Positions 2,686-63,174 of a stretch of DNA of 64,000 bases are shown piece by piece. Under the pieces are notes generated by a model. It searched no databases. It saw only the letters and a list, made by a program, of their open reading frames with translations, and was not told the origin of the DNA. The DNA comes from Halobacteriales archaeon QS_4_69_225 (GTDB lineage: Archaea; Halobacteriota; Halobacteria; Halobacteriales; Haloarculaceae). The position numbers were made by a program, and so were the translations under genes. The stretch is taken from NCBI GenBank assembly GCA_003020965.1, contig PXRL01000010.1:124001-188000 (forward strand), given 5' to 3'. How positions within the stretch are numbered: the stretch's first letter is position 1; each line of letters begins with the position of its first letter.

Positions 2686-3666
2686 CTACAGGCCGGCGGC
2701 GACGTCCTCGGCGAAGTACGTCAGGATGAGGTCGGCGCCGGCGCGTTTGATCGACAGCAGCGACTCGCGGGCGACGGCCTCGAGGTCCAGCCACCCCTTC
2801 TCGGCGGCGGCGTGCAGCATCGCGTACTCCCCGGAGACGTTGTAAGCGGCGACGGGGTGGTCGAACTCCCGCCGGACCGCCGCGACGACGTCGAGGTACG
2901 GCAGCGCCGGCTTGATCATCAGCACGTCGGCGCCCTGCTCAACGTCCAGTCGGACCTCCCGCACCGCCTCGCGGGCGTTGGCGGGGTCCATCTGGTAGTG
3001 CCGGCGGTCGCCGAAGGCGGGCGCGCCGTCGGTGGCGTCCCGGAACGGCCCGTAGAAGGCCGACTCGTACTTGGCGGCGTAGGACATCACCGGCACGTGT
3101 TCGTACCCGGCGGCGTCCAGCGCCTCCCGGACCGCGCCGACCACCCCGTCCATCATCCCCGAGGGGGCGACCATGTCGGCGCCGGCCTCGGCGTGGGAGA
3201 CCGCGACCCGCCGCAACGACTCGAGCGTCGCGTCGTTGTCGACGGTCAACTCGGGGTCCTCGCGGGCGCCTTCCTCGAGGACGCCGCAGTGACCGTGGTC
3301 GGTGTACTCGCACATGCAGACGTCGGTGACGACGTAGAGGTCGGTCGCGTCGGTGATGCGCTCGACGGCCCGCTGGACGACGCCGTCGTCGGCCCAGACG
3401 CGGCTGCCTTCGGCGTCCTTCGACGCGGGGACGCCGAACACCATCACGGCCTCGACGCCCGTCTCGGCCACCTCGCGGGCGCGGGCGACGCTCTCGGCGA
3501 CCGGAACGCGCTCGTGGCCCGGCATCGACTCGATTTCGACCCGCTCGTCGGTCGTCGCGTCGACGAACACCGGCGCGATGAGGTCCGACGCCCGCAGTTC
3601 GGTCTCGCTGACCAGCGACCGGACGCCGTCCGTCCGGAGCCGACGGGGGCGGTTCGTCAGTTCCAT
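2686..3666 (-). CDS. hemB: Delta-aminolevulinic acid dehydratase (porphobilinogen synthase)
   Basis: This 326-residue cytosolic enzyme joins two 5-aminolevulinate molecules into porphobilinogen for haem, sirohaem and cobamide synthesis. The cysteine cluster that binds catalytic zinc is visible (C117, C119, C127 in TDVCMCEYTDHGHCG). So are both Schiff-base lysines: K199 in SYAAKYESAFYGPF and K252 in MIKPALPYLDV. The length is normal for the family. The ATG at 3666 starts MELTNRPRRLR, the conserved N-terminus; longer in-frame extensions run into the upstream repeat and are basic and non-conserved. It is read alone, with a palindrome-rich spacer upstream. Confidence 0.96.
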   Translation of the reverse strand: MELTNRPRRLRTDGVRSLVSETELRASDLIAPVFVDATTDERVEIESMPGHERVPVAESVARAREVAETGVEAVMVFGVPASKDAEGSRVWADDGVVQRAVERITDATDLYVVTDVCMCEYTDHGHCGVLEEGAREDPELTVDNDATLESLRRVAVSHAEAGADMVAPSGMMDGVVGAVREALDAAGYEHVPVMSYAAKYESAFYGPFRDATDGAPAFGDRRHYQMDPANAREAVREVRLDVEQGADVLMIKPALPYLDVVAAVRREFDHPVAAYNVSGEYAMLHAAAEKGWLDLEAVARESLLSIKRAGADLILTYFAEDVAAGL

Positions 3667-3749
3667 GTCGGGGCTCGGGCCGCGTCCGGCAAAGGCGCGT
3701 CGCTCCCGGGCCCCCGTGGCGGCGGTGGTGTTCAGATGAGGATTCCGGA

Positions 3750-4350
3750 GTCCAGAAAGCCCTCGGCACTCTCGACTTCTGCTCGCGGGCCATGCGCGGC
3801 GCGACGCGCCGCGAATTCGAGGCGGTGGAACCGCCTCGCACGGCCCGCTCGCACGGCCCGAGGCGACTCCGTCGCCTCGCTGCCCGCGGCTCACGGCTCG
3901 CGGTGCTCACCGGCAGAGCGCCGCTCTGCCGAGCCCTCGCTCGCTTCACTCGCGAAGACGCCGTTCGCCGTCGAGGCGCTCCCTGCGGTCGTGCCTCGCT
4001 ACTGCTCGCTGTCGTTCGAGAGAGCGACGCTCTCTCGTGATGTTGCCAGAATCCGGCGGATTCTGGCCGCTTGCCGGACGTCGTCCGGCAATGTCGTCAG
4101 AACGCGGAGCGTTCTGACTGCAAGCGGGAAATCGAAGATTTCCCGCAATGACGAAAGACGCGTTGCGTCTTTCGAACCACGCTCCTCGGTCGCGTTGCTC
4201 CCTGTGGTGTCCTCGCGCGGCGCTGCCGCGCGAGCGGGCCGAGGGAAGCGCCGCGAACGTCCGGGTTCGCCGAGTGGGCGGCCGGTTCCACCGGCCGCCG
4301 TATAACGTGGCGGCTTCGCCGCCACGCAGCGCCTCGCCCTTTCAGTCCAC
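3750..4350. repeat. Intergenic array of about 13 short near-perfect palindromes
   Basis: Between hemB and the DedA gene (3667-4463) there is no convincing gene. Thirteen palindromes with 8-11 bp stems and 1- or 3-nt centres lie at 3795-3813, 3819-3837, 3859-3879, 3911-3931, 4017-4037, 4045-4067, 4071-4091, 4096-4118, 4124-4146, 4152-4174, 4212-4234, 4277-4299 and 4306-4326. Examples are CGCGGCGCG-A-CGCGCCGCG and GAGGCGGT-GGA-ACCGCCTC. The flanks read agaaagccctcgg (about 3759) and cctcgccctttcagt (about 4331), which resemble each other inverted. Part of the array (about 3817-4030) recurs at 41207-41418. ORFs through it are basic and low-complexity and were rejected. Confidence 0.8.
3817..4030 (+). 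repeat. Dispersed repeat family 1, copy A
   Basis: This stretch is nearly identical to 41207-41418 in the same orientation. The best-matched part starts at ctcgcacgg (3848) and runs to cgagagagcgacg (about 4029). By eye it differs at roughly one position in twelve. Shared landmarks are the cggcagagcg/cgctctgccg palindrome, ccctcgctcgcttcactcg and ctactgctcgctgtcg. Both copies lie 110-150 bp upstream of the start of a minus-strand gene (hemB here, a prenyl synthase there). No transposase or coding function is seen. Confidence 0.8.
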
Positions 4351-4463
4351 CAGGGTTCGGTTGGTCCCCCGGCAGAAACGGACCGGCTCGCCGGTGCTTA
4401 TCTGAACAGTACCGTGGCGGCACACGCAACGCATTTAACGCCCGTGGCCGTCCCGAGGAACGA

Positions 4464-5090
4464 ATGGCCGCCGCGCCCGCCGCCCGCCTCCGGACGCTCC
4501 TCGAACGGTACGTCCTCCATCTCGCCGCCGGGGTGACGCTCGCCTGTCTCGTCGCGGGCGTCTATCTCTTCGCCGTCGCCGACTCGGCGTTCGCCGAGCG
4601 GCTGCTGGACCGCTACGGCCTCGCGGCGCTGTTTTTGATCCTCGTCCTCGAGGGGGCGATGCTGTTGTACTTCGCGCCGAGCGAGGCGCTGGTGCCGGCC
4701 GGCGTGACGCTACTGGCCGACGGCCCCGACGACTACGCCACCGTCGCGGCCGTCATCGGCGTGGCGGTTCTCGGCGCGACGGTCGGGCAGTTCGCGCTGT
4801 TCACCGTCGCCAAGCGGGCCGGCCGGGAGTACCTCCTCTCGCGGTCGTGGTTCCGGGTCTCCGCGGACCGCCTCGAGCGGTTCGACGGCTGGTTCGAGCG
4901 GTGGGGCCCCGTCGCCGTCCCCGTCTCCAACGCGCTGCTGTTCACCCGCGGGATGCTCACCGTCCCGGCCGGCTTCGCCGACATGGACGACCGGACGTTC
5001 CTGCTGCTGTCGGCGCTGGGGACGCTGCTGTTCCAGACGTGGCTGGCGGCGCTGGCGTTGGTCGTCGGGGTTCGGCTGGAGGTCCTGTAG
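4464..5090 (+). CDS. DedA/VTT-family membrane protein
   Basis: The protein has 208 residues and about five hydrophobic segments. It resembles the DedA/SNARE-associated (VTT) family: FAPSEALVPAG near residue 70 recalls the E-x-x-x-P re-entrant motif, and SNALLFTRGMLTVPAG near 155 recalls the conserved R-x3-P/AG segment. DedA proteins are linked to lipid carrier flipping and membrane homeostasis in bacteria; the archaeal role is unknown. The ATG is chosen because a TATA-like catttaac lies about 28 nt upstream (4430-4437), as expected for a leaderless transcript. It is convergent with the next gene. Confidence 0.7.
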   Translation: MAAAPAARLRTLLERYVLHLAAGVTLACLVAGVYLFAVADSAFAERLLDRYGLAALFLILVLEGAMLLYFAPSEALVPAGVTLLADGPDDYATVAAVIGVAVLGATVGQFALFTVAKRAGREYLLSRSWFRVSADRLERFDGWFERWGPVAVPVSNALLFTRGMLTVPAGFADMDDRTFLLLSALGTLLFQTWLAALALVVGVRLEVL

Positions 5091-9656: not shown

Positions 9657-11027
9657 TCAGTACTTCTCGAGGTAGCGGTCCAGCTCCCACTGGGAGACGT
9701 CGACGAGGTAGTCGGTGTGCTCCTCGCGTTTGGCTTCGATGAACTTCTCGGCGACGTGTTCGCCCAGGCCGCCGCGGACGACCTCGTCGTTTTCGAGGGC
9801 GTCGACGGCCTCGCCGAGGTTCTCCGGCAGCGTCTCGATGCCGTACTCCTGGCGCTTGGCCTCGTCGAACTCGTAGATGTTCTCGCGGATGGGGTCCGGC
9901 GCCTCGAGGTCGCGCTCGACGCCGTCGATGCCGGCGTTGATGAGCGCCGCGAAGGCGAGATACGGGTTACACGACGGGTCGGGGAAGCGGGCTTCGATGC
10001 GGCTGGCCGCCGGCACGCGGGCGGCGGGCTTGCGGATGAGCGCCGACCGGTTGCGGTCCGACCAGGCGACGTACACCGGTGCCTCGTACCCCGGAACGAG
10101 GCGCTTGTAGCTGTTGACCGTCGGGTCGGTGACGGCACAGATGGCCGGCGCGTGCTCGAGGATGCCGGCGAGGAACGAGTGGGCCGTGTCGCTCAGGTCG
10201 AACTCGTCGTCGCCGTCGTGGAAGGCGTTCTCGCCGTCCTCGAACAGCGACATGTGGGTGTGCATCCCCGAGCCGTTGATGCGCGGCACCGGCTTCGGCA
10301 TGAACGTCGCGTGGAGGTCGTGCTGGGCGGCGACGGCCCGGACCGTCGTCCGGAAGGTGGCGACGTTGTCGGCCGTCGACAGCGCGTCGTCGTACTCGAA
10401 GTTGATCTCGTATTGGCCCTCGGCGACCTCGTGGTGGCTGGCCTCGATCTCGAAGCCCATGTCTTCGAGGGCGAAGATGATCTCCCGGCGGACGTCGCTC
10501 GCGAGGTCCTTCGGCGCGACGTCGAAGTAGCCGCCCTGGTCGGCGAACTCGGTGGTCGCGTAGCCGTCGTCGTTCTGTTCGAACAGGAAAAACTCCGGTT
10601 CGGGAGCCATGTTCACCTCGAAGCCGTGGGCCTCGGCCCGCTCGAGGGCGTTCTTCAGCACGCGCCGCGGGTCGCCCTCGAACGGCTCGCCGGTGGAGGT
10701 GTCGATGACGTCGCAGATGAGCCGGGCGGCCCCGCTCTCGCCGTTGGTCCGCCACGGCAGCACCGCGAACGTCTCCGGGTCCGGCTTCAGCCGCATGTCC
10801 GACTCCTGGATGCGGACGAAGCCGTTGATCGAGGAGCCGTCGAAGTAGATGCCGTCGGTGAACGCCTTCTCCGCCTGCCGAGCCGGAATGGAGACGTTCT
10901 TCACCGTCCCGAGGATGTCGGTGAACTGCAGCCGGAGGAAGTCGATGTCCTGCTCTTCGATCTCTTCGATAACGTTCCGTGCCTCGAGCGAAAGGCCGCC
11001 GTCGGTGGCCGTGTTTTCGTTCGTCAT
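9657..11027 (-). CDS. glnA: Glutamine synthetase, type I
   Basis: The 456-residue enzyme makes glutamine from glutamate, ammonia and ATP. Landmarks include [10 protein letters not shown] near the N-terminus, the metal-binding PEPEFFLF, the [12 protein letters not shown] segment, [12 protein letters not shown] and the substrate-binding [12 protein letters not shown]. The adenylylation-site tyrosine segment of bacterial GSI-beta is absent, as in the archaeal GSI-alpha type. ATG at 11027 ([11 protein letters not shown]) is chosen because a TATA-like ATTTAGTAG on the minus strand lies about 30-37 nt upstream. The divergent lrp shares the promoter region. Confidence 0.97.
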
Positions 11028-32005: not shown

Positions 32006-32137
32006 GTCGGAACGGTCGGCAGGCTACCGATTCTCATCTTTGCTGTAGCGAGGAAATCCCGCCGTTCACGGCGGGAAGGAATCGCGTTCAAGTAGCTGTG
32101 CGCTCACACGCTTGTCGGCTATCCGTCTGTCCCGCGT

Positions 32138-32278
32138 TCATAGCTCGTCCTCGGTGTCGAGTGCCTTCGCGCCTTCCAACATCAGCCCCTTCCAAGTGTA
32201 CCCACGCCGTTCTTTCAAGTCCCTCAACGCCTCGAATTGCTCGCGGTCGTCTATCTCGAATCGGATTTCTGTCCCCAT
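32138..32278 (-). CDS. Small protein divergent from tnpB
   Basis: This 46-residue protein starts MGTEIRFEIDDREQFEALRD and ends EGAKALDTEDEL. It has a short beta strand followed by two helices with WKGLML, which could be a ribbon-helix-helix-like fold; this is a guess. It lies between the left hairpin and tnpB on the opposite strand. From memory, similar small ORFs accompany tnpB in other haloarchaeal elements. It may regulate the element. It is not a TnpA (too short, no catalytic Tyr/HUH). Confidence 0.6.
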   Translation of the reverse strand: MGTEIRFEIDDREQFEALRDLKERRGYTWKGLMLEGAKALDTEDEL

Positions 32279-32337
32279 ACATCTGTGTATTGTCCCGTGG
32301 ATTTTTTGTGTGTTACGGCATAAGTACCTGTCGTCCA

Positions 32338-33525
32338 ATGACAGGGACCGCCATCAAGACGCTTGAAGCCACGCTCGCGCCACCCACGGCAAATAAAGAG
32401 CGACGGCTTCAACGAACGGTGGCGACGTATCGCCGCGCCCTCGAAGACGCCTTCGAGAGCGGTTGTGATACGCAAACAGCAGTCAACGATGTGGTCACGC
32501 CATACAACCTCACATCCTACGCGAAAGACGCGCTCAAGAGCTACGTGCCGAAACTGCGGGACACGTACAACGCGTCGGAGTTGACCGACGACCACCCGAT
32601 ACGGTTCACCAACCGAGGGTGGGCGCTCGACCACTCGCCGGAGCGAACACACGAGTTTTGCTGGAATGTCCCGCAGGCTGGGGGTGGTACGTCCTTTTGG
32701 ATACCATTGCGTATCAATCCCGAACAGCGGGACCTGTGGACGGACCTTCTCAACGGCGACGTATCGGTGGGTGAATTTCGGTTACACCGCCACCGTACAT
32801 CATGGCGGCTACACGTCACCGTCGAGTACGAGATACCAGAGCCGGAGACACCGGACGACCCGACGCCGGTCGGCTTCGATATCGGAGAGGGGAATCTGCT
32901 TGTCGGCTGTGCCGTCAAGCAGGGCAAGCCCGTAGACCCAATACTCGTTGATGGTGGCCGCGCTCGCCACCTGCGGAAAGAGATGCACACGACACTCACA
33001 CGGCTACAGGAGCGGAACGCCGAACAGTGGCGGATTGACGAGCGATTCGACTACTATCAGAACGCACTCACTGATATTGTCGAGAAGGCGTCTCGGAAGG
33101 CTGTTGAGTATGCCCGTGGGTTCGAGGACCCGGTAATCGTGATGGAAGACTTGTCGTACATCCGCGAGTCACTAGACTATGGGAAGTGGATGAACCGGCG
33201 ACTCCATGCGTGGGCATTTGCCCGGTTGCAGAAGCGTATCGAAGACAAAGCGCGAGACGCCGGTATCCCTGTCGAATATATCAACGCGGCCTACACGTCT
33301 CAAGCGTGCCACGCTTGCGGCCACATCGGGAACCGGGACGGCGACGACTTCCGGTGCCAAAATAACGGCTGTTGGGTCACGGAGTATCACGCCGACCTGA
33401 ACGCGGTCGCCAGACTACGTCTGGCGGGCAGCCAGAAATCTGCGATTTCTGGCGACGGCGGCGAATATCGCAGACCGCGTAGACCCGTGGGGAGAGAGCC
33501 TGCTTTGGAAATCAGCAGGCAATGA
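32338..33525 (+). CDS. tnpB: TnpB RNA-guided endonuclease, complete
   Basis: The 395-residue protein looks intact. The RuvC acids are all present: D181 in FDIGEGNLL, E270 in VIVMEDLS and D353 in EYHADLNAVA. The zinc finger has C324, C327 (CHACG), C340 and C345 (CQNNGC). An N-terminal helix and wedge region (TGTAIKTLEATLAPPTANKE) precede it. An active enzyme would cleave DNA matching its right-end-derived guide next to a short target motif. ATG at 32338 gives the usual N-terminus; longer frames run into the ACT gene. Confidence 0.93.
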   Translation: MTGTAIKTLEATLAPPTANKERRLQRTVATYRRALEDAFESGCDTQTAVNDVVTPYNLTSYAKDALKSYVPKLRDTYNASELTDDHPIRFTNRGWALDHSPERTHEFCWNVPQAGGGTSFWIPLRINPEQRDLWTDLLNGDVSVGEFRLHRHRTSWRLHVTVEYEIPEPETPDDPTPVGFDIGEGNLLVGCAVKQGKPVDPILVDGGRARHLRKEMHTTLTRLQERNAEQWRIDERFDYYQNALTDIVEKASRKAVEYARGFEDPVIVMEDLSYIRESLDYGKWMNRRLHAWAFARLQKRIEDKARDAGIPVEYINAAYTSQACHACGHIGNRDGDDFRCQNNGCWVTEYHADLNAVARLRLAGSQKSAISGDGGEYRRPRRPVGREPALEISRQ

Positions 33526-33712
33526 CTCGCCACGGGACGGGAGTGCTTGTGACTGCACCACGGAACACCGAGAGGCGAGTCAGAAATCCCGACAGACGAC
33601 CCTCTCAGCGTATGGTTCCGAAACCTCAGAATCAGCGACCGACCTTGTAGGAAGCCCCGCCGTTCACGGCGGGTGAGGAAGTCACTTAACAGCGCGGCCG
33701 GATACGTATGGT

Positions 33713-41206: not shown

Positions 41207-41418
41207 TTCGAGGCGGCTTCGCTGCCCGCCGCCCTCTCGCACGGCTCGAGGCGGCGCCGTCGCCTCGTCGCCGCGGCTCACGGCTTGCGGTGCTCACCGG
41301 CAGAGCGGCGCTCTGCCGAGCCCTCGCTCGCTTCACTCGCGAGGACGCCGTTCGTCGTCGAGGCGCTCCCTGCGATCGTGCCTTGCTACTGCTCGCTGTC
41401 GCTCGAGAGAGCGACGAG
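41207..41418 (+). repeat. Dispersed repeat family 1, copy B
   Basis: This is the second copy of the repeat at 3817-4030, in the same orientation and again about 110 bp upstream of a minus-strand gene start. It keeps the palindromes cgaggcg...cgcctcg and cggcagagcg-g-cgctctgccg, with compensating changes in the centre. The reading frames through it are basic and unlike haloarchaeal proteins. Confidence 0.8.
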
Positions 41419-41616
41419 GGCTCTCTCCCGCTTCCGTTTCTCTTGATCCTTTGTAAACACGGCTACTGACCGATTCGGAGTTAGCATCCGCCGAGAGGGG
41501 CGTCCGTCAGGTCGCCCCCGAGGCGGTTCCCGGCGACGAGACGGCGAAGCCGTCGAGTCGCCGTAGCGCGCACGGACCGGAGGCGGCGCGAAGCGCCGCC
41601 GAAGGGAGTACGCGCG
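41419..41616. other. Non-coding spacer with palindromes
   Basis: No gene is seen between the dispersed repeat and etfA. Palindromes with a GAA centre occur (GACGGC-GAA-GCCGTC near 41548; GGCGGCGC-GAA-GCGCCGCC at 41582-41600). These match the class of units in the 3.8-4.3 kb array. Confidence 0.6.
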
Positions 41617-62972: not shown

Positions 62973-63174
62973 TTGGGTGTCGACCCACGGTAGCGTTCAT
63001 ATAAGAGGTCATAGGGAGCCTGAAGACTGAGAAAGCCCTCGGCGCTCTCGACTCCCGCGGCTCGTTGCGCGCTTCGGGCGCGTTGCGCCCTGCAGTGCTT
63101 ACGTCGCCGAGGTTCGCCGAGAGCGCCTCGCCCGACCCACAAGCGTTTAATCGCGGCCGCGGCTACGTGCCCGC
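62973..63174. other. Spacer upstream of the TRAM gene
   Basis: No gene is seen. The block agaaagccctcggcgctctcgact (63027-63050) nearly equals the left flank of the palindrome array (about 3759-3782), so it is another fragment of that repeat. A clear TATA-like gcgtttaatc (63143-63152) lies about 28 nt before the TRAM-protein ATG. Confidence 0.6.

Follow-up and report, generated by a model that had tools for sequence, protein, structure and literature searches.

A Haloarchaeal Palindrome Array Is Probably a Nest of Mobile Hairpin Modules within an IS6-Type Miniature Transposon

Thirteen palindromes crowd into 532 bp (positions 3795 to 4326) of the window, a 64,000-nucleotide stretch of contig PXRL01000010.1 from Halobacteriales archaeon QS_4_69_225. 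In our reading, to which we give a probability of about 70%, this array is a nest of mobile elements: hairpin modules have settled in an IS6-type miniature transposon (MITE), and their tips are rewritten or flipped through folding of the DNA. The transposon host and the separately inserted modules are additions to the original prediction, which had described the array as a repeat of a shape. The source assembly (own genome, G000) comprises 2.95 Mb in 28 contigs and is 88.96% complete.

RESULTS

The palindromes share one design

A direct scan found 13 perfect palindromes at the predicted place, starting at positions 3795, 3818, 3859, 3911, 4017, 4045, 4071, 4096, 4124, 4152, 4212, 4277, and 4306. 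With the center fixed at 3 nt, the stem reaches 8 bp or more in all 13 and 9 bp or more in 12. In 2,000 dinucleotide-preserving shuffles of the same 532 bp, the corresponding means were 0.056 (maximum, 2) and 0.018 (maximum, 1). Shuffled sequence thus stays far below the density of the array, and a chance origin, which the original prediction had also rejected, is ruled out.

Loop lengths of 0 to 12 nt were scanned at stems of at least 8 bp over the 690-bp element that holds the array (see below); the true loop is 1 nt in five palindromes and 3 nt in eight, and no other length occurs. The prediction had taken the centers as 1 or 3 bases and the loops as shorter than 3 nt. The latter was mistaken: the 1-base centers are 3-base G-N-C loops with pairable ends, so that a single design with 3-nt loops accommodates all 13, and each of the seven hairpins that we folded (six in 4017-4174 and one at 4306) adopted a 3-nt loop. 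Under DNA parameters, the six hairpins of 4005-4190 fold as drawn at -64.6 kcal/mol (z score, -9.1).

The 13 loops read, in order, GAC, GGA, TCC, GCC, GAC, GGC, GTC, GGA, GAA, GTT, GCT, TCC, and TTC, each with G first or C last. Of 111 palindromes with stems of at least 9 bp in 38 own-genome sources chosen for their similarity to the array, 96 follow this rule, and in 100 a C-G pair adjoins the loop. In 290 kb of own-genome stretches picked irrespective of the array, 3-base loops outnumber those of any other length by only a small margin; the design is therefore a property of the elements and not of the genome at large. One such stretch (L273) contains a hairpin cluster at 10428-11016, in which three hairpins share the stem CGAAAGACGCC with loops GGA, TCT, and TCC. 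The claim that stems differ from unit to unit stands within the array, yet the same stems recur at many other own-genome sites with other loops.

The array lies inside an IS6-type MITE

The entire array is contained in a 690-bp element (3724..4413, plus strand) with 17-bp terminal inverted repeats and an 8-bp target duplication. The left repeat, GGTGGTGTTCAGATGAG (3724..3740, plus strand), has two mismatches to the consensus GGTAGTGTTCAGATAAG, and the right repeat (4397..4413, minus strand; CTTATCTGAACAGTACC on the plus strand) has one. The flanking copies of GTGGCGGC at 3716..3723 and 4414..4421 are identical in 8 of 8 bases. The element's neighbors are hemB on the left (PF00490, 468 bits) and a VTT-domain gene on the right (PF09335). 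At up to three mismatches, the consensus end has 64 matches in the own genome, 32 per strand, versus 1 for a reversed control. We read out 19 paired elements of 118 to 690 bp; in 15 of them the target duplication agrees in at least 7 of 8 bases.

Four open reading frames overlap the MITE, and none has a Pfam match at an E value of ≤0.1; we found no transposase gene among them, and a coding role for the array is rejected on the same grounds. The same ends bound 697-bp IS6-family elements in three related genomes (G003, G010, and G047). The translated transposase copy of G003 scores 195.6 bits against NF033587 (IS6; cut-off, 125) and 29.8 bits against PF13610 (cut-off, 27). In the own assembly, the only IS6 transposase matches found are three diverged ones with stop codons. 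The host element is thus a nonautonomous IS6-type MITE between hemB and the VTT-domain gene, with all three marks of the class: shared ends, an 8-bp duplication, and no transposase gene.

The sister species G007 lacks the transposon at this place beside hemB. The same site in G013 (L222) carries the miniature transposon with a largely different interior, which suggests exchange between copies. Elsewhere in the window, a probable decayed end of the same MITE lies at 62989-63053, with two mismatches in its terminal repeat.

The MITE contains optional hairpin modules

Short MITE copies (about 200 to 225 bp) are free of long hairpins, and longer copies have hairpins at fixed points. Comparison of the copies shows that the MITE holds smaller, transposase-free modules with perfect stems and 3-nt loops. 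M3 (3778..3882, plus strand; limits set by eye) consists of TCTGCTC, a GCGGGCC hairpin, the hairpin at 3859-3879, and CTG. In the window copy, the loop of the GCGGGCC hairpin is split by an inner pair of hairpins (3795-3813 and 3818-3838); this pair is missing in L070 and L044, and the entire module is missing in L080.

The next hairpin, CGGCAGAGC-GCC-GCTCTGCCG (3911..3931, plus strand), belongs to another dispersed repeat, whose matches span about 3876-3982. BLAST finds it at seven own-genome loci (L055, L056, L059 to L062, and L064) with a constant stem and a variable loop; no MITE ends were found around these loci at up to four mismatches. The window itself has a second copy of 3843-4036 at 41231-41427, 91% identical, in which the hairpin at 41298-41318 has loop GGC instead of GCC.

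M1 (4012..4179, plus strand) runs from TCGTT through six hairpins (4017-4037, 4045-4067, 4071-4091, 4096-4118, 4124-4146, and 4152-4174) to AACCA and is one of 34 module sites with both ends. M2 (4210..4250, plus strand; right limit approximate) comprises TC, the hairpin at 4212-4234, CGGGC, and another hairpin, which is disrupted in the window copy; the pair is intact in other copies. M4 (4275..4327, plus strand), with hairpins at 4277-4299 and 4306-4326, is present in L052, whereas L091 and other short MITE copies do not have it. Hairpins of this general kind occur in a further dispersed element as well (L054, about 2530-2880), whose ends are CTCGAAAGCCCTCGG and CGAGGGCTTTCGAGG.

M1-type modules insert exactly and have even numbers of hairpins

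Filled and empty sites show that the M1-type module recurs with identical ends at numerous unrelated places and, wherever an empty site is known, without duplication. One site occurs in three states: it holds a six-hairpin module in the own genome, a two-hairpin module in G013, and none in G007. In the own genome, the module follows a stop codon, with TCGTT...AACCA placed between GCGAGA and CGCCGA. The empty site of G007 reads GCGAGA directly followed by CGCCGA, so the insertion was exact, with neither duplication nor loss. Empty sites of M1-type modules are also found in short transposon copies, and in L048 a module splits a hairpin between CGTGG and CGGCGAAGCCGCCACG that is whole in L052.

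A further target is a palindrome, split between CCTCGGGG and CTTGACCCCGAGG, that we regard as a putative IS605-type end because L289 and L291 have it next to tnpA/tnpB-type genes. It is filled in L289 (Haloferax larsenii), L022/L220 (G034), and L027 (G031), filled but altered in its right arm in L028 (G032) and L288 (Natrinema), and empty in L289, L296, and L297; both states thus occur within one H. larsenii plasmid stretch. Several targets of M1-type modules are palindromic, and there are many other target types too. C follows the module in 34 of 35 rows and G precedes it in 31 of 35, with little specificity beyond.

The annotated IS200/IS605 tnpA of H. larsenii (L289, 2259-2711) holds a 54-bp module in frame. 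The module ends two codons before the stretch HISPDHVHLF, which holds the HUH motif, and is absent from the aligned Halovenus tnpA. Such a module can therefore alter proteins. A 54-bp module also occurs in L302 (G019), a locus with a Y1 transposase match and a 166-amino-acid open frame. A 90-bp query with a two-hairpin module has matches in 33 plasmid records, mostly partial, with three covering 80% of the query. Distant genera share these stems, as do plasmids of named haloarchaea.

Across both strands, 46 rows starting with TCGT[TC] merge into 38 sites, 34 of which end with AAC[CGT]A and count as complete modules. These 34, many of which derive from shared insertions in transposon copies and so are not independent, have two (23 modules), four (9 modules), or six (2 modules) perfect hairpins and none has three or five; their lengths are 54 to 66, 117 to 123, and 168 to 174 bp. 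Of the four incomplete sites (L122, L123, L168, and L172), L123 and L172 each have a run of three perfect hairpins followed by an imperfect one, and L168 and L172 have an AACSA end after an imperfect hairpin. Longer forms keep the outer hairpins and have the extra ones in the linker, and the series 2, 4, 6 would follow from insertion of hairpin pairs into the linkers of other pairs.

Loop sequences turn over rapidly, with some inversions

In 22 copies of the hairpin CTCGCGCGGC, differences per base amount to 0.51 in the loop, 0.03 in the stem, 0.018 in the linker, 0.13 in the left flank, and 0.07 in the right flank; the loop of the neighboring hairpin differs at 0.47 per base (21 copies). These rates are drawn from 22 of 37 aligned copies, with L154 to L168, which had been fetched by exact stem, excluded and decayed copies falling below the full-length cut; the exact-stem copies are included in our slot lists of stems, loops, and imperfect units. 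The 22 copy pairs that have no more than one mismatch elsewhere (1.0% divergence) differ at 1.50 of 3 loop bases, and pairs at 17.7% divergence differ at 1.52 of 3. Loop tips are saturated with change even between copies that are about 99% identical elsewhere.

Between G000 and G013, four orthologous regions show differences at 19 of 62 loop bases, 26 of 365 stem bases, and 138 of 1,342 other sites, counts that include one misaligned hairpin (L042/L121). Orthologous loops thus change about 3-fold faster than their surroundings and remain far below the difference between dispersed copies; therefore, much of the loop change may occur at or around copying.

Three G000/G013 loops differ at all three bases (AAA/TTT, GCT/AGC, and GAA/TTC), and all three are exact reverse complements; the latter two each have a stem mismatch in one ortholog. 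These pairs come from draft assemblies. An assembly artifact is rejected as the source of inversion on the basis of a TCC/GGA loop pair between complete plasmids of two Halomontanus rarus strains, 98.15% identical over 2,436 bp, in which a second hairpin has the same loop. None of four hairpins changed its loop between Natribaculum longum and Natribaculum luteum or between two Natrarchaeobaculum sulfurireducens plasmids, the latter identical over the stretch, so that, of the six orthologous hairpins in finished plasmids, five have an unchanged loop. Compared with column shuffles, loop pairs that are reverse complements are in excess at P < 0.01 in 5 of 7 slots (S3, P = 0.056; S6, P = 0.19), in a test that is not independent of common ancestry. 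A strand-symmetric loop preference would also give such an excess, and the orthologous inversions are therefore the stronger evidence. Orthologous sites also show paired changes of the tip, such as GCGAGACC.TCC.GGTCCCGC versus GCGGGACTC.ATC.GAGTCCCGC. Loops thus change very fast, and some are exact inversions between orthologous sites.

These changes at orthologous sites, together with the saturation of loops, are what a purely mutational origin would offer: palindromes would arise and be perfected in place by slippage or template switching, and only the host transposon would move. We consider this unlikely, though it is the strongest of the alternatives. It is already strained by the exact empty sites, and it does not explain why module ends agree between unrelated sites or why distant genera and the plasmids of named haloarchaea have stems in common with the array.

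Stems retain pairing as their sequences vary

Among 23 units of the slot bordered by TGATSA and AACSAC, there are ten different perfect stems, or eight without reverse-orientation units. We analyzed covariation in 16 units of 21 nt, left from 21 sequences after five near-duplicates were dropped; two of the 16, L047 and L050, represent the neighboring hairpin in opposite orientation. Of all cells, 93.1% pair, and 16 are changed on both sides versus 5.0 after shuffling (reached in 0 of 500 shuffles). The covariation score is 0.361 versus 0.171 ± 0.028 (0 of 500), and slid pairings score 0.035 to 0.170. Two of the five measures are not above shuffles: 4 of 9 pairs vary on both sides (3.0 shuffled; 141 of 500), and there are 8 further pair types (8.6 shuffled; 417 of 500). 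Related sequences inflate scores of this kind. On balance, the alignments show that pairing is conserved more than sequence, with stems changing on both arms. In old copies such as L042 the stems have decayed, so pairing is not kept everywhere. Loop inversion and the covarying stems of one slot point to hairpins that may form in DNA. Two ideas of the original prediction, a repeat of a shape and a palindrome-generating replication process, hold up largely on this evidence of covarying same-slot stems and of fast-changing, sometimes inverting loops.

Covarying stems and conserved linkers would also be expected if the array were transcribed and selection kept the pairing of hairpins that act in RNA, and the predicted fold is strong, though computed with DNA parameters only. 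We regard a structured RNA as improbable. Among 41 imperfect units, in which slots S1 and S2 were located by loose patterns that may admit a few chance matches, mismatches are G-T in 16, A-C in 17, C-T in 11, A-G in 8, and others in 7 cases; with G-T no commoner than A-C, there is no sign of the wobble-pair preference expected of RNA. No Rfam family reaches its gathering score in 3600-4500. The best subthreshold match, CRISPR-DR20 (25.6 bits versus 42; E = 0.007), covers one hairpin and was treated as chance. Loops of 3 nt only within the 690-bp element, modules that are optional between copies, and loops that invert also argue against a function in RNA.

Candidate mobilizing enzymes

HUH enzymes act on hairpins, and the intergenic hairpin pairs resemble BIMEs, as would be expected if a resident RAYT (REP-associated tyrosine transposase) mobilized them as REP/BIME-like elements. 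Such elements go with a cognate Y1 transposase. The own assembly, at 88.96% completeness, has no match to PF01797; a control search with this profile gave matches for 5 of 14 known genomes, including Haloferax volcanii. Five members of the genus, the own genome included, have exact copies of one hairpin and were taken as array-rich; three of the other four have no PF01797 match, and G013 has fragmentary ones. All five assemblies are incomplete, and the missing matches are therefore not decisive. Among near-complete genomes of the genus, PF01797 was found in 10 of 11, versus one (fragments) of the five array-rich ones, a difference that assembly incompleteness may explain. Judged by eye, no constant tag stands beside the hairpins, and we think it improbable that a resident RAYT moves them.

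The window also contains a tnpB-type element at 32057-33673 (PF07282 in 32338-33522), bounded by CCCGCCGTTCACGGCGGG hairpins. Hairpins with 3-base loops lie in the last part of its frame, at 33408-33426 and 33431-33453. The stem GCCAGAAATC is common to this 3' region (window position 33431) and to modules of G026, with no wider identity seen. No tnpA-like frame was recognized beside the element in the list of open reading frames.

Protein-binding half-sites were another option of the original prediction, and the fixed 3-bp spacing of arms in all 13 palindromes would suit an operator-like array for a nucleoid or regulatory protein. Ten different stems with perfect pairing in a single slot speak against such sites, as do arms that vary between units and the insertion behavior of the modules; they are the least probable of the explanations.

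DISCUSSION

The nest of mobile elements that we favor would work as follows. The hairpins would fold in the DNA itself, and when a folded hairpin is copied, template switching or cruciform processing would flip and rewrite the tip and could pass a change from one arm to the other. The module would move as single-stranded hairpin DNA with an enzyme supplied in trans, a step that is the weakest part of the scheme. For this enzyme, an IS200/IS605-type HUH transposase is the best candidate, since IS605-type palindromes are among the targets and insertion leaves no target duplication.

More tentatively, the modules may represent a distinct class of archaeal element whose heritable feature is a shape. 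Paired DNA hairpins with 3-base loops would enter each other's linkers (giving two, four, or six) and spread through many haloarchaeal genera inside other transposons; copying via folded single-stranded DNA would invert or rewrite their tips and keep their arms matched.

Chloroplast DNA undergoes small inversions, in which a hairpin loop between inverted repeats flips between close relatives. The loop flipping is alike; chloroplast loops are longer and are not known to belong to a mobile module. Double-hairpin elements of mitochondrial DNA were reportedly described by Paquin in 2000. In accounts of mitochondrial repetitive hairpin-forming elements (RHE) (PMC2800124, PMC7218506), these are short single or double hairpins with conserved stems, substitutions mostly in loops, few complementary substitutions, no flanking duplications, and apparent mobility. 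The likeness to our modules is one of kind only: both have hairpins with stems kept, loops changing, and no duplication. The archaeal modules differ in residing in chromosomes and plasmids of archaea and in their 3-nt loops, even hairpin numbers, common insertion ends, and nesting in a transposon.

The host transposon is of a known kind. According to a review of the IS6 family (PMC7986276), its members make 8-bp target duplications and have ends that start with GG and contain a cTGTt motif, and archaeal members form two clades of about 700 to 750 bp; the review also notes a pair of MITEs, one of 227 bp and one of 336 bp. The window element shares the 8-bp duplications and the IS6 ends; unlike those MITEs, its copy here is 690 bp long and packed with hairpin modules.

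PATEs (palindrome-associated elements), as presented in the report on Haloquadratum walsbyi (PMC3119063), have no target duplication, no transposase, and near-terminal palindromes related to IS605 ends. The window modules are likewise palindromic, free of duplication, and without a transposase, but hairpins fill them, whereas PATE palindromes are near-terminal. The same report describes SMR-A (small mobile repeats) of H. walsbyi, a transposase-free repeat of about 110 bp with inverted ends and no target duplication. Its insertion targets are the palindromes that lie near the termini of PATEs and of IS605-type transposons. Within one type, SMR copies are commonly >95% identical, and the authors call their mobilization enigmatic (PMC3119063).

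SMR-A is the nearest known description, and the M1-type module works like it: both are short (54 to 174 bp in M1-type modules), lack a transposase and a target duplication, and enter IS605-type palindromes, here between CCTCGGGG and CTTGACCCCGAGG. The original prediction knew of no named family, and this was right only in part, as close relatives in kind exist in SMR-A and the mitochondrial double-hairpin elements. Unlike SMR-A, as far as the description goes (PMC3119063), M1-type copies differ in their stems and fall into three length classes instead of about 110 bp. Their body consists of two, four, or six hairpins with 3-nt loops, covarying stems, and inverting loops. Compared with the prominent inverted ends of SMRs, their ends amount to TCGTT/AACCA only, about 5 bp with 4 of 5 bases inverted. 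Near-identity of copies fails, so we do not file the module as SMR-A.

The available text of a review of prokaryotic MITEs (PMC10969869) and of the RepRanger paper (PMC12306157) describes nothing alike, and we found no published description of invertible 3-base-loop hairpin modules in the open-access PMC literature. SMRs were described in 2011, and for elements whose mobilization has been called "enigmatic," these modules offer defined ends, exact empty sites, and differences at the strain level. The loops may act as an inherent marker that hairpins fold in vivo; if their inversion is a by-product of copying through hairpins, strain comparison would measure the process directly. IS6-type MITEs and duplication-free small mobile repeats are known kinds of element; the even-numbered, pairing-conserved, tip-inverting module is a novel variation on them.
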